Shown here: piece by piece, positions 5,983 to 30,200 of the stretch | Numbering within the stretch: position 1 is the first letter of the stretch | How the letters are laid out: the number at the start of each line of letters is the position of its first letter | DNA from: Bdellovibrio sp. | Lineage (GTDB): Bacteria; Bdellovibrionota; Bdellovibrionia; Bdellovibrionales; Bdellovibrionaceae | Assembly (NCBI GenBank): GCA_020720425.1 | Contig: DYOP01000011.1 | Span: forward strand, 1-48,641 | Reading direction: 5' to 3' | Length of the DNA: 48,641 bases | Translations under genes and position numbers: made by a program | The notes under the pieces: model-generated | What the model was told of the DNA's origin: nothing | What the model saw: only the letters and a program-made list of their open reading frames with translations | The model's database searches: none

Positions 5983-6756
5983 TTATTTGTACAAAATAGA
6001 TATAATAATAGCTGCGCCAATGACAATTCTATACCAGCCAAAATGCTTAAGGCCATATTTGGATAATACACTCAGTAACCCTTTGATACTTAGGGTTGCA
6101 AAAACAAAAGAAAGCGTTAGGCCCAGTAAAATAAAATCTAATTGGGATGAGTTTATGCTGGGGATAATTTTATAGCCTTTATAAAGTCCTGCGGCCATAA
6201 GGGTTGGGACTGCCAAGAAAAAAGAATACTCGGTAGCTTCTTTTTGGTTAAGCCCAATATTGAGGCCTCCAATAATTGTAGCTGCAGATCTTGATACGCC
6301 TGGTATAAAGGCAAAACATTGAATGAATCCTAAAATAAGAGCTTGCTTGTAAGAAATAGAATTTAGACTCACCTTTGCCTCGGAATAAGAGGACTTTTGG
6401 TCATAAAAAATTAAAACAATTCCACCTAAAAATAAAGCTAATGCCACAACCAGTACATGATTTAAAAGGGCTTCAATTTGGTTTTTAAAAATAAGTCCAA
6501 TAAAAGCCGCTGGTAAAAAAGAAGTTAATATTTTGAGATAAAATTGAATTCGAATTGGGAAAAATTTTTTCCGGTATAAAAAAAGAACCGATAAAATAGC
6601 TCCAAATTGAATAATAATATTAAAACTTTGAACAAAAGTATCATTGTTAATGCCCATAGCAGTTGAAAATAAAATCAAATGCCCAGTGGATGAAATGGGT
6701 AAAAATTCAGTAATACCTTCAATTAGAGAAAGTAAAATAACGTCTAAATATGTCAT
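5983..6756 (-). CDS. uppP: Undecaprenyl-diphosphatase (BacA/UppP family)
   Basis: 257-residue multi-span membrane enzyme that dephosphorylates undecaprenyl diphosphate so the lipid carrier can be reused for peptidoglycan and surface glycans; its loss raises bacitracin sensitivity (family knowledge). The first signature 'EGITEFLPISSTGHL' (about 13-27) and the second 'PGVSRSAATIIGGL' (about 153-166) are intact, and about eight hydrophobic segments are visible. Length matches the family. The start is the ATG at 6756 with GAGG about 11 bases upstream. It is monocistronic by layout, divergent from the subtilase gene. Confidence 0.95.
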   Translation of the reverse strand: MTYLDVILLSLIEGITEFLPISSTGHLILFSTAMGINNDTFVQSFNIIIQFGAILSVLFLYRKKFFPIRIQFYLKILTSFLPAAFIGLIFKNQIEALLNHVLVVALALFLGGIVLIFYDQKSSYSEAKVSLNSISYKQALILGFIQCFAFIPGVSRSAATIIGGLNIGLNQKEATEYSFFLAVPTLMAAGLYKGYKIIPSINSSQLDFILLGLTLSFVFATLSIKGLLSVLSKYGLKHFGWYRIVIGAAIIISILYK

Positions 6757-6853
6757 ATAAGTGTATTACCTCGTAAGTTGCAAATTGAGTCAAGGGTCGT
6801 GCTGTCTGAAAATTACGATTTTTGGCCCCATATTTTTTGTATGACCAAGGGGT

Positions 6854-6923
6854 GATGTCAGAATAAAAAAATTTAACTAACAAGAGATGTCATCTATTTT
6901 TTTATTGGCTAATGTCAGGACAT
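6854..6923. promoter_or_regulatory. Dyads and repeated GATGTCA motifs between uppP and the subtilase gene
   Basis: The 228-base divergent intergenic region holds a perfect 11-base inverted repeat (AATAAAAAAAT at 6862-6872, ATTTTTTTATT at 6896-6906), three (G/A)ATGTCA copies (6854, 6886, 6911) and a 5-2-5 palindrome ATGTC-AG-GACAT (6912-6923). The arrangement suggests operator sites for one or both genes, but no regulator family is recognised and AT-rich repeats arise easily by chance. Confidence 0.3.
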
Positions 6924-6974
6924 GGTTAGGCTATAGCGATATTGCTACTGAGTTGTAGGTAGCTATAAACATAA

Positions 6975-6984
6975 GGGGGGGGGG
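6975..6984 (+). repeat. G10 homopolymer abutting a start codon
   Basis: Ten consecutive G residues lie directly before the ATG of the subtilase gene (6985). It occupies the place of the ribosome binding site. In AT-rich DNA a G10 tract is unexpected, and such tracts commonly change length by strand slippage, so it may tune or switch translation. The repeat itself is seen directly; the switching role is inference. Confidence 0.9.
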
Positions 6985-8505
6985 ATGTTTAACATAAAAT
7001 ATATTTCTAAAATTGCGGTCGCTTTATCGCTTTTTTTAGGCGTCCAGGCGCAGTCAGCAGAAAACGAGTTTTTGGTTAAAATTAAAGATGAGTCTATTTT
7101 TTCTCAAATGCAAAAAGCTCATATTGAAATCAGTGATTATCATAAGGCGGGTCAGCTTTTGACAGTAACGATTTCTAAAAATGAGCAGTTAGAAAAATTA
7201 ATATGGTTCTATTCTAATCCGCTTGTTCAGTATGTTGTGCCAAACTCTGAGCTAGAAGCTTTTGATGTGCCGCTGGATTTTTCTAAACTAAAAACGCAGT
7301 ATGCTCTTTCTAATATTAAAGCTCAAAAAGCATGGGAAATTGCGGGTAACAAGGGTTTGAAGTCAGTTGTGGTAGCCGTCATTGATACGGGTGTTGATTA
7401 TAAACATAAAAACCTTTCTCCTAATATGGTAGAAGGTTATGATTTTGCTCGTAATGATTCAGACCCTATGGATGAAATTGGCCGCTCAAACCCAGGTCAT
7501 GGGACTCACTGTGCAGGGATAATAGGAGCGACCGGTCTTATTGAGGGCGGAATTGTTGGAATAGCTCCAGGCATTTCTCTTATGCCGCTTCGTTTTTTAG
7601 ATCAAAATGGTCGTGGTGACTTTGGTAACGCAGTTAAAGCAATTGATTATGCTATTGAACAAAAAGTACAAATTATTAGCGCTTCTTGGGGTGGGCGAAT
7701 TAATCAAGCTATGGCAACGCCTTTGATTGAAGCTATTGAAAGAGCCAATCAGACTGGCATTTTATTTGTTGTTGCGGCTGCAAATGACGGTAAAAATAAT
7801 GATACTTATGATGTTTTTCCGGCTAACGCACCTGTTGAAAATGTACTAACAGTTGCCGCTTCTAATTCGAAAGGTGAAAAGCCGACTTGGTCAAATTTTG
7901 GAAAAGGCAAAGTTCATATTGCTTCGCCAGGTGATGCTATCGTTTCAACTTTGCCAAATGATGCTTATGGTCCGTTATCGGGGACTTCAATGGCAACTCC
8001 CCTTGTGGCAGGTTTAGCAGCTCTTGTTAAATCGCAGGATGGTTCGATTACTCCTTTGCATATGAAGTCCCTTCTTCAAGCCTCAGCTCATGAGTCTTCT
8101 GTGGTAACAGCCTGCGGTTGCGAAATTGATGCAGCTGAAGCTGTGAACTTTGCTAAAAATAAGTTACCCTATATTCATCCGCAAGCCGCTTCTTTAAAAG
8201 TTAACGAGACAACGACTTTTGAAGTGGTCAACGGTGCTGAAGAAAATTTTGAATTTAATGTCAGTGACACGTCAAAGGCAAATATCGATGCGAAAACGGG
8301 AAAGTTAAATGCTCTTCAAGCAGGCGATATCATCGTAAATGCAGTTGATAAAGAATCGGCACAGGTTCTGCACTCTCGAATCATAAGAATTTTAAAGGCT
8401 AACGGTTCAGAGCAAAAACCTGCCGCTCAATGTCCATTTGATAGCCCTGAGTTATGCAATGGTTTGTGTTACTTTATTCCCATATTACCTTGGTGTACAA
8501 AGTAA
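6985..8505 (+). CDS. Secreted subtilisin-like serine protease (S8) with Ig-like domain
   Basis: 506 residues. Signal peptide at 1-25 (SLFLGVQAQSA), then an inhibitor-I9-like propeptide region (about 27-90, 'NEFLVKIKDES'), then the S8 catalytic domain with Asp in 'VIDTGVDY' (about 130), His in 'GHGTHCAG' (about 173), the oxyanion Asn in 'AAANDG' and Ser in 'SGTSMATP' (about 335). All catalytic residues are present. After about 390 comes a short Ig-like (BIG2-like) region ('AASLKVNETTTFEV...') and a cysteine-rich tail ('CPFDSPELCNGLCYF', '...PWCTK') that may be disulphide-bonded. It is predicted to be exported, autoprocessed and to degrade proteins outside the cell or on the surface. It is followed after 26 bases by a FadL-family gene, a likely operon. 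Confidence 0.92.
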   Translation: MFNIKYISKIAVALSLFLGVQAQSAENEFLVKIKDESIFSQMQKAHIEISDYHKAGQLLTVTISKNEQLEKLIWFYSNPLVQYVVPNSELEAFDVPLDFSKLKTQYALSNIKAQKAWEIAGNKGLKSVVVAVIDTGVDYKHKNLSPNMVEGYDFARNDSDPMDEIGRSNPGHGTHCAGIIGATGLIEGGIVGIAPGISLMPLRFLDQNGRGDFGNAVKAIDYAIEQKVQIISASWGGRINQAMATPLIEAIERANQTGILFVVAAANDGKNNDTYDVFPANAPVENVLTVAASNSKGEKPTWSNFGKGKVHIASPGDAIVSTLPNDAYGPLSGTSMATPLVAGLAALVKSQDGSITPLHMKSLLQASAHESSVVTACGCEIDAAEAVNFAKNKLPYIHPQAASLKVNETTTFEVVNGAEENFEFNVSDTSKANIDAKTGKLNALQAGDIIVNAVDKESAQVLHSRIIRILKANGSEQKPAAQCPFDSPELCNGLCYFIPILPWCTK

Positions 8506-8531
8506 TATAAAAATTGATTAGGTGGAATATA

Positions 8532-9830
8532 ATGGAGAGTGCTTACTTTATTGAGGTATTATCAAAAAAAGGTTTTAAAGCTTTTAAGATAGTAACATTT
8601 TTGTGGGCACTCCTTTTTTGTTCAAATAAAAGTTATTCGCAAAATTTAAATCTTCAAAGTCTTCTTATCGGAGATCAAGCGGCCGGGATGGGGGGCGCCT
8701 ACACAGCCCTTTTTAGTGATGCATCTGCTGCTTCTTACTATAACCCAGCGGCATTGGGTTTTATCAATGAAGAGTCTGTTTCGGCCTCAGTCGGTGTTTT
8801 TAAAAAATTTGATATTCACTATGGAGACAGTGCGGATATTGTTTCGGCGTCATTAAAAATGAATCAGGGCTTTTTTAGGGCCGTTCCGGCCTCGACGGCA
8901 GCGGTATTAAAAACTGAAATATTTGATTGGCTAAAGCCTTACACATTAGCATTTTCAATTATTGTTCCTGAGTATGACGAATTCAAAGGTGATCTATATC
9001 GGTCAGAATCAAATGTTGCAACTTTAGATTATAAAATCGAAAGCCTTTGGGTGGGGGGATCAATTGCCAAAAAACTATCCCCAACGCAATCTGTGGGATT
9101 ATCACTTTATTATGTGGCCAGGACTTTCTCATCTAATGAGGTTCAACGAAGCTCCGGTGGGAGTTGGTATTTTGATTCTGAAACAAGAACGTTTAAACAT
9201 AATTATGTTTTACCCATCATAGGTTACCAAGCTGAGATTGACTCGAGCTGGAGATGGGGGATAACAGTTTTTGGACCATCATTAAAAATTGCAGGCGAGG
9301 GTGAGCGTGAGAGCTTGCATATTGATAGTACGGGGATTACTTCGGAGACTCCAGAAACCGGAGTTTCAAGCTTTATGGGGCGACCCATGCAGATTAATTT
9401 AGGATTAAACTATTTAATTAACCGCTGGAGTATTGCGTTTGATATTAAGCATTCTCTTGGGCAAGAGGCTGTTGATTTTGAAGGTAAACCCTACGCTCAA
9501 AATTATTCGTTTAAACCAATAACAAATATTTCTTTAGGTTCAGAGTATATTTTGCAAGATAACCTTCATTTAAGAGCTGGAATTTTTAGTGATTTTAGTC
9601 CTCACGAAAGTCAGCGTATTTTAGTCTATCAAAACCAGGCTGATTATATTGACCAAGGGGGATTTTCTGCGAACGTTGTTTATAAACAAAAAAATATGCA
9701 ATACACCTTTGGAGGTTACTATTTGGGCGGCAAGGGGCACTCATGGCATAAAGTGCAAAATAATATAATCGAACTCTCTAAGCAATCTCATGTTTTTACA
9801 ATGTTAGTGGGCGTTCATTACAGCATGTAA
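8532..9830 (+). CDS. FadL/OmpP1/TodX-family outer-membrane protein
   Basis: 432 residues from the ATG at 8532, which has AGGTGG six bases upstream; the frame extends to a TTG at 8514 without benefit. A hydrophobic segment (about 20-33) ending 'SNKSYSQ' acts as signal peptide. The mature N-terminus carries 'GDQAAGMGGAYTALFSDASA' and 'YYNPAALGF', the hallmark of FadL-type transporters for hydrophobic compounds (fatty acids, aromatics). The rest is strand-rich, and the C-terminus 'VFTMLVGVHYSM' looks like a barrel end strand. Substrate is not deducible. It lies 26 bases after the subtilase and probably shares its transcript. Confidence 0.85.
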   Translation: MESAYFIEVLSKKGFKAFKIVTFLWALLFCSNKSYSQNLNLQSLLIGDQAAGMGGAYTALFSDASAASYYNPAALGFINEESVSASVGVFKKFDIHYGDSADIVSASLKMNQGFFRAVPASTAAVLKTEIFDWLKPYTLAFSIIVPEYDEFKGDLYRSESNVATLDYKIESLWVGGSIAKKLSPTQSVGLSLYYVARTFSSNEVQRSSGGSWYFDSETRTFKHNYVLPIIGYQAEIDSSWRWGITVFGPSLKIAGEGERESLHIDSTGITSETPETGVSSFMGRPMQINLGLNYLINRWSIAFDIKHSLGQEAVDFEGKPYAQNYSFKPITNISLGSEYILQDNLHLRAGIFSDFSPHESQRILVYQNQADYIDQGGFSANVVYKQKNMQYTFGGYYLGGKGHSWHKVQNNIIELSKQSHVFTMLVGVHYSM

Positions 9831-27236: not shown

Positions 27237-30200
27237 TTGAGAGACTTGTTAAATTTTTTTGATAAACCAAAAGACCCCCTATCAATTGAAGGGGTCAGAA
27301 TTTCTCTAGCATCACCAGAAATGATTCGAAGTTGGTCTCATGGTGAAGTTAAAAAGCCAGAAACTATTAATTATAGAACATTTAAGCCAGAGCGAGATGG
27401 ATTGTTCTGCGCTAAAATTTTTGGACCAATTAAGGATTACGAATGTCTTTGCGGTAAATATAAACGAATGAAGTACCGCGGAGTCATTTGTGAAAAGTGC
27501 GGCGTTGAAGTTACCCAATCTAAGGTTAGACGCGAAAGAATGGGGCATATTGAGCTGGCTACTCCGGTAGCTCACATTTGGTTTCTTCGTTCTTTGCCGT
27601 CACGTATAGCAACAATTTTAGATATGTCTCTTAAGGATGTTGAAAGAGTTCTGCACTGTGAGGCCTACGTTGTCGTTGATCCTGTGGAGACTCCACTTGT
27701 TTCGGGTTTAGTACTTTCTGAGGAGTCTTATCAAGCCGCGCTTGATGAGCATGGGCCTACTTTTAAATCAGGAATGGGGGGAGACGCAATCAGAGAACTT
27801 TTGCGTAAAATCGATCCTGAATACTTAGCTAGAAAGCTAAGATTAGAGTTATCTGAAGCAAAATCTGATGCGGCAACCAAGAGAATTGCTAAACGTTTGC
27901 GAGTTATCGAAGCGTTTAAGGCATCAAAAAATAAACCAGAATGGATGATGGTTGAAGCGCTTCCTGTTTTACCTCCTGATTTGCGACCTCTTGTTCCCCT
28001 TGACGGAGGCCGGTTTGCCACTTCAGATCTTAATGATCTTTATCGAAGAGTGATCAATCGTAATAATCGATTAAAGCGTCTTCAAGAGCTTAATGCACCA
28101 GAGATTATTATTCGAAACGAAAAAAGAATGCTTCAAGAGGCTTGTGATGCCCTACTTGACAATGGGCGACGAGGTAAAACATTCACCGGTCCTAACAAGC
28201 GTCCTCTTAGGTCATTAAGTGATATGCTTAAGGGTAAGCAGGGGCGATTTAGACAGAACTTACTAGGTAAGCGGGTTGATTATTCAGGTCGTTCAGTTAT
28301 TGTTGTAGGACCTAATCTTAAACTTCATCAGTGTGGTCTGCCCAAAAAAATGGCGCTCGAGCTGTTTAAACCCTTTGTCTACAATAAATTAGAAGAGCGT
28401 GGTTTGGCAGGGACGATCAAACAAGCCAAAAGGCTTGTTGAGCAAGAGTCAGTTGAAGTATGGGATATCTTAGCAGAGGTTGTTAAAGAGCATCCTGTAT
28501 TGCTCAACCGTGCGCCTACGCTTCACAGGCTTGGAATTCAAGCATTTGAACCTATTCTACACGAGGGAAAGGCGATTCAGTTGCACCCTCTTGTTTGTAC
28601 GGCATTTAATGCCGACTTTGATGGTGACCAAATGGCGGTTCACGTTCCTTTGTCTATTGAGGCTCAGGTCGAAGCGCGTGTTTTAATGATGTCAACAAAT
28701 AACATCCTTTCTCCCGCAAATGGAAAGCCGATTATCAATCCATCTCAAGATATTGTTTTAGGGTTGTACTGGATGACACGAATTCGACCCGGGGCTCATG
28801 GAACAGGAAAGGTATTTGCTTCAGTCGAAGAGGTTATATCGGCTCATGAGCATGGAACTGTTGATTTGCAAGCATCAATTAAAGTTAGAGCTCGAGGAGC
28901 ATTGCAGGAGACCTCTGTCGGTCGAGCTATTTTAAGCGATATTTTGCCTGACCTAGTGCCCTTTAAAGAAATAAATGTAGTTCTTACGAAAAAGCAAATT
29001 GCAACTTTAATTGATAGAAGTTTTCGTCTTGCGGGCGCTAAAGCAACCTGTATTCTTGCAGACAAATTAATGGAGTTTGGATTTAAGTATTCAACTTTGG
29101 CAGGTTTATCAATTTGTATCGATGACATGGTTATTCCCGAATCTAAAGTATTGCGTTTAAAAGAATCAGAGGCTCAAGTAGCTGAAATTCAAAAACAATA
29201 TGATGAGGGTTTAATTACTGACGGTGAAAGATATAATAAAGTTGTAGATATTTGGGCTCAGGCTTCAGACAAGGTTGCTAAAGAAATGATGGTTAAGATT
29301 GAAAAGCAAAACTTTGTTGTTGATGGTAAAGAGTTTGAAGGTCCTTCGTTTAACCCTATTTATATTATGGCTGATTCGGGAGCCAGGGGTTCTGCCAATC
29401 AGTTAAGGCAGCTGGGAGCCATGCGAGGTCTAATGGCCAAGCCTTCTGGAGAAATTATTGAAAGTCCTATTACGGCAAATTTCCGCGAAGGACTAAACGT
29501 TCTTCAATACTTCATATCGACTCATGGTGCTCGTAAAGGCTTGGCCGATACGGCTTTGAAAACAGCCAATTCAGGTTATTTAACACGAAGACTTGTGGAT
29601 GTTTCCCACGATGTGGTAACAACTGAGCAAGACTGTGGAACTAAAGATGGCCTAGAGATGGGCCCACTGATGGAGTCAGGTGAGATTATCCAGGCTATCG
29701 GTGAGCGGCTTCTCGGAAGAACGGCATTGGGAGATGTTACTGATCCCGTATCAGGTGAACTGATTGTTTTAGATGGTCATGAAATTGATGAGTTAGCTGT
29801 TCAAAAAATTGAATCTTTAGGGCTTGAAAAAGTTACTATTCGGTCGCCACTGACTTGTCGTTCAAGACGTGGAATTTGTATTAAGTGTTATGGTCGTGAT
29901 TTGGCACGTGGAGCCACGGTTAGTCTTGGTGAAGCTGTTGGTATTATTGCCGCTCAATCTATTGGTGAGCCGGGAACTCAGTTAACAATGAGAACCTTCC
30001 ACTTAGGGGGGGCAGCGTCTAAAGCTGTTGAACAGTCAATTCACACGGCTAGATATGATGGTACTGTTAAGCTGTTTAGCACTCAGGGTGTGCCTAACCG
30101 CTCAGGTAAGCTGACAGTTCTTAATCGAAACGGGGAAATTGTTATTTTTGATGATTCAGGTCGGGAGCGTGAGCGATTTAGACTTCCTTACGGCTCAGTG

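Follow-up and report, generated by a model that had tools for sequence, protein, structure and literature searches.

The locus analysed here raises the question of what a run of ten G residues does when it directly touches the start codon of a gene for a secreted protease. The window, i.e. the whole stretch of 48,641 nucleotides that was analysed, belongs to a Bdellovibrio sp. assembly of 2.6 Mb in 203 contigs. An initial annotation had placed the tract at positions 6975-6984 and had proposed phase variation of the downstream gene by slippage.

The tract, the subtilase gene and its neighbours

The coordinates of the tract were verified exactly, with zero bases between its last G and the ATG at 6985. 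The features of the locus are as follows.

6975..6984, + strand: G10 tract, which together with the TAA ahead of it would form the Shine-Dalgarno (SD) sequence TAAGGGGG plus a G spacer (basis: sequence, orthologous start regions and pairing model)
6985..8505, + strand: secreted subtilase of 506 aa, Peptidase_S8 plus Big_2, N-terminal signal-like segment
5983..6756, - strand: uppP/bacA (undecaprenyl-diphosphate phosphatase), profile match; conserved divergent neighbour
8514..9830, + strand: FadL/Toluene_X family outer-membrane protein gene, profile match; not conserved as neighbour

G10 is the sole run of at least 8 G or C in the 48.6 kb window. The runners-up are a C7 (3094-3100) and a G7 (30006-30012), then eight G6 runs; the initial annotation had named the C7, which is present, as the other homopolymer of this kind and had overlooked the G7. 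Markov models of order 1-3, trained on 369 kb of sampled genome sequence, gave an expectation of 0.04-0.07 runs of G10 or longer, on either strand, per window of this size. G10 is thus unusual for one window, yet it is 1 of 26 tracts of at least 9 genome-wide.

The assignment of the target gene as a secreted subtilase was confirmed by the matches of its 506 aa frame to Peptidase_S8 and Big_2; PF00082 scored 185.6 bits against a gathering cut-off of 21.8, which places the product in the Peptidase S8 family. The segments IDTG, GHGTHCAG and GTSMATP are visible in the translation, and we take them to be the D-H-S segments of subtilases. The nearest solved structures by sequence were deseasin MCP-01, an intracellular serine protease and thermitase. 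The ATG at 6985 agrees with the signal-peptide starts of the orthologues.

Co-location with the FadL-family gene had been put forward as a sign of a surface cluster. This argument was dropped, because a FadL-type neighbour was found in 0 of 65 subtilase loci at E 1e-6 (some loci end shortly after the protease gene), whereas divergent uppP lies beside the subtilase in 40 of the 65. As a side observation, the divergent arrangement of uppP and the secreted subtilase (5983-6985 in the window) is conserved within the family.

Orthologous start regions

Subtilase orthologues came from 31 relatives by whole-genome search, with more from named records; 58 relatives were searched, all outside the genus of the window organism. 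The 50 distinct start regions counted, the window's among them, took in 21 of 35 named-record loci. Omitted were L063, L065, L066, L070, L074, L081, L083 and L086, apparently the same contigs as loci from the whole-genome search, L084 as a near repeat of L078, L095 and L096, where the N-terminus was not reached, L097 as a Bacillota protein, L068, which is without an in-frame start codon ahead of the match, and L082, whose start was unresolved.

GGAGG lay within the last 22 nt before the start in 39 of the 50 regions, a share that is somewhat favourable since orthologue start codons were hand-picked using the signal peptide and visible SDs; the start of L079 was set too late by 3 bases, with no effect on the count. 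The orthologue SD often reads GGAGGGGG, 4-7 nt ahead of ATG. Typical forms are CCACGGAGGGGGTTTAATATG and ACCAAGGAGGGGGTTTTATG, and the general pattern in the relatives is (A/C)(A/C)GGAGGG(GG), a few bases ahead of ATG. The window's G10 occupies the same position. According to the initial annotation, the tract replaces the ribosome binding site; this was rejected in view of the G-rich SD that orthologues carry at that very place, and G10 is best taken as a G-rich form of the site.

The longest G run per start region (n = 50) was 2 in nine regions, 3 in fifteen, 4 in eleven, 5 in twelve (mostly as GGAGGGGG), and 6, 9 and 10 in one region each. Tracts longer than G6 were thus confined to two of the 50, the window and SKYG79, a MAG from another genus (L061, L091) with G9 at the same site, AAGGAAGGGGGGGGGTATG; the tract is not kept across the relatives. 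We regard G10 as most likely a degenerate, overgrown and lineage-specific form of the subtilase SD that relatives carry in the same place. In this lineage the internal A of the SD would have become G, and the G run would then have extended across the spacer until it reached the ATG; with GGAGGGGG as the putative starting point, a single A-to-G change would give G8. Independent gain of a long tract by this gene in a second genus could also mean selection on the tract itself, which counts against a simple drift of the SD.

Pairing with the 16S rRNA tail

Pairing with the anti-SD tail was computed register by register, and the spacing penalty was that of an E. coli ribosome-binding model; the calculation covers tail pairing and spacing and takes no account of mRNA structure, S1 or standby effects. 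The 16S tail was taken from two relatives (L171, L172), in which 16S ends in GGATCACCTCCTTT. The register in question is the following.

6972..6979, + strand: TAAGGGGG, able to pair with the anti-SD tail CCUCCUU via one G-U wobble (pairing model; tail from L171 and L172)

Five G's remain between this element (6972-6979) and the ATG. For G10 the best register was AAGGGGG at an aligned spacing of 4, with -8.6 kcal/mol in a model that combines the relatives' tails with E. coli spacing parameters; AAGGGGG is thus complementary to the relatives' 16S tail at a suitable distance. The same model gave -11.2 kcal/mol for B. bacteriovorus (L080). Modelled shorter tracts fell to -7.1 (G9), -1.3 (G8) and -0.8 kcal/mol (G7), and modelled longer ones, from G11 to G15, ranged from -8.7 to -9.2 kcal/mol. 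Since the loss of two G's cuts modelled initiation sharply, slippage could matter. The model also lends support to the proposal that the tract sits in ribosome-binding position and that its length would set the SD spacing.

TAAGG at the 5' edge of the tract would anchor the 16S tail, the G's that follow would pair, one of them as a G-U wobble, and the final G's would act as a spacer. Normal translation would be expected at G10. Slippage that removes at least two G's would bring the pairing too near the ATG and so weaken initiation, and a gain of G's would have little effect. Length sensitivity is hence predicted to be one-sided, with contraction weakening initiation sharply and expansion not.

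The sole 16S match in the assembly itself (L098; G000:C124, 1214-2888, 778 bits) is not Bdellovibrio-like and is without the CACCTCC tail. It was set aside as a tail source for its organellar look, and the relatives' tails were substituted. A tRNA-like stretch follows the match on this 3.6 kb contig of 34% GC, which is probably organellar DNA, perhaps of a protist, that was binned with the genome.

Upstream sequences and the transcription start

The sequence TATAAA (6964-6969), 5 nt ahead of the tract, might instead be a -10 box, so that the RNA would begin in or next to the G's, giving a near-leaderless mRNA whose 5' end would be altered by tract length or reiterative initiation. In keeping with this, several relatives have a TATGAT-like box about 18 nt ahead of the SD, suggesting short leaders. 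However, a promoter scan of 6757-7100 gave no match on the + strand, and a sigma-70 promoter across the tract was rejected on these grounds. Moreover, TAnnnT at its best offset was present in only 7 of 36 relatives, a subset of the 50-region set in which a few loci (such as L041, L052, L077 and L079) were anchored on an upstream GGA and not on the SD. A transcript of this kind might also be without the AAGG that anchors the SD. We consider a transcription start at the tract highly improbable.

In L039, L044, L064, L072 and others, the region about 25-60 nt ahead of the subtilase start holds a recurrent inverted repeat like GTTCCAAGTTGGAAC, a possible operator; none was seen in the subtilase leader of the window.

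Long G tracts across the genome

Genome-wide, 26 distinct G/C tracts of at least 9 were counted (19 of G9, 7 of G10, none longer). The first-, second- and third-order Markov models gave expectations of 8, 14 and 12 such tracts, and of 2 to 4 tracts of at least 10. The observed number is a 2-3 fold excess (Poisson p 4e-7 to 0.004), and the expectation is if anything high because most contigs of the training sample had been listed for their tracts. Among 59 genomes (its own and the 58 relatives), with 0 to 33 G9 matches per genome, the window's genome had the most. Mismatch-repair loss as the source of the many tracts is unsupported, as MutS and MutL were both found above cut-offs.

Most tracts, 19 of the 26, lie within open frames (18 of 24 other tracts in frames of at least 90 aa, plus one on C195). 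Pfam named 14 of these 19 genes: LptE, a transglycosylase, LptF/G, IF-2, MurB, a class-V aminotransferase, ATP synthase alpha/beta, a response regulator, Kup, a chorismate-binding enzyme, a TsaD-family protein, a DHH/RecJ-like protein and two amidohydrolases, one of them imidazolonepropionase-like. The remaining 5 had no Pfam match and include a doubtful frame of 136 aa (L003). Six of the 26 tracts are intergenic; for three of these the next same-strand ORF of 80 aa begins at least 107 nt downstream, and for the remaining three the search found no such ORF within 250 nt. Only one tract, the window's G10, lies directly at a start. Elsewhere, at L025 (G000:C146, 1501-1509), a terminator-like hairpin (AAGGCTGAGCC...GGCTCAGCCTTT) has a G9 in its loop.

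The long tracts are not gathered at surface or variable genes. Tract length alone therefore marks no switching genes here, because so many tracts lie in open frames, several of them of housekeeping genes (IF-2, ATP synthase, MurB, Kup).

The same set bears on whether the assembled length of G10 is an assembly or sequencing artefact, the true run being shorter or longer. The assembly is fragmented into its 203 contigs, G tracts are difficult for short reads, and in one study a published reference tract disagreed with the length in the main population (PMC9187656). Yet the frame stays open across the tracts of 9-10 G within conserved genes, and a domain match spans the tract in 9 of the 19 in-frame cases (coordinates read by eye); tract lengths are therefore right in general, and an artefact at this one locus is most improbable.

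G-rich Shine-Dalgarno sequences at other genes

Of 251 ORFs in the genome sample, 5 have a run of at least 6 G no more than 20 nt from the start, as compared with 1 among 1516 internal Met sites (Fisher p 0.0003). Of 41 distinct G7-N0-9-ATG sites inspected in this genome, 7, the window's included, begin ORFs that exceed 150 aa and do not lie in longer frames; for the other six, Pfam named four genes, encoding cytochrome bd subunit II, FliW, a Clp-type ATPase and DnaB. Across 66 genomes of the family, G9-N0-6-ATG occurred 36 times and the reversed pattern 11 times. Of 29 G9-N0-6-ATG sites inspected, 12 begin ORFs of at least 140 aa, one of these starts being doubtful given a longer frame on the opposite strand. 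Poly-G SDs thus arise occasionally across the family at various genes, and the subtilase is the only gene for which we noticed one in two genera.

Two relatives carry G12 tracts a few bases ahead of an ATG, L156 (G003), where an ORF of over 500 aa follows, and L159 (G080). These are better slippage candidates than the G10 of the window.

Is the tract a phase-variable switch?

G10 might be a contingency locus under selection, at which slippage alters SD strength and spacing and toggles the protease between high and low expression. Its length falls in the range that is variable in other bacteria, where G11/G12 mixtures are described (PMC9187656). The modelled steep loss at G8 relative to G10, the G9 that this gene acquired in another genus and the family-wide excess of G9-N0-6-ATG over its reverse agree with such a role, and about half of the 12 G9 gene starts have signal-like N-termini by eye. 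However, the long G tracts of this genome also occur in housekeeping frames and so are not confined to variable genes, a tract longer than 6 is found in only 2 of the 50 start regions, and MutS and MutL are present. Nothing seen requires G10 to be a selected switch, and we hold this explanation to be unlikely. Phase variation by G10 would be possible in principle but is disfavoured by the genome-wide picture. An extension of the preferred reading, that G10 is an overgrown SD, can be offered only as a speculation that we ourselves doubt: in some Bdellovibrionota, GGAGGGGG would repeatedly have turned into a pure G tract by one substitution plus slippage, giving one-sided translational switches (contraction down, expansion neutral), at the subtilase twice, in two genera.

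Within the open-licence literature searched, we found no description of a natural poly-G SD as a phase switch, nor any paper that deals jointly with Bdellovibrio, phase variation and homopolymeric sequence. If the length varies, the locus would be a natural case of a slipping repeat that is both SD and spacer, with expression changing without a frame shift and an asymmetric prediction. If it does not, the locus shows how far a G-rich SD can drift and stay workable, and it cautions against calling long G tracts in these genomes phase-variable by length alone.

Comparison with known systems

A close counterpart is the SD of the orthologous Bdellovibrionota subtilase genes, for example in B. bacteriovorus kdesi (L080), where the same gene has a G-rich extended SD, CCACGGAGGGGGTTTAATATG, in the same place near the ATG. 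In contrast to it, the window's SD is without the internal A, and the G run reaches the ATG without any other spacer base. Egbert and Klavins reportedly engineered, in 2012, ribosome-binding-site spacers from simple sequence repeats in which the repeat length between SD and start tunes translation; those spacers were synthetic, whereas the window's tract is natural and its tuning role putative.

The pili of Bifidobacterium breve, as described in PMC9187656, are likewise a surface or secreted function linked to a G tract of about 10-12. That tract, a replication-slippage switch, lies within the coding sequence and shifts the frame, and mixed lengths were measured; the tract studied here precedes the ATG and has one assembled length. 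For espR of M. tuberculosis, PMC11898584 reports that translational efficiency can shift with the length of a 5'-region G homopolymer, as might be the case here. That 7G tract lies 144 bp upstream and acts via leader folding, whereas the window's tract would itself be the SD and its spacer.
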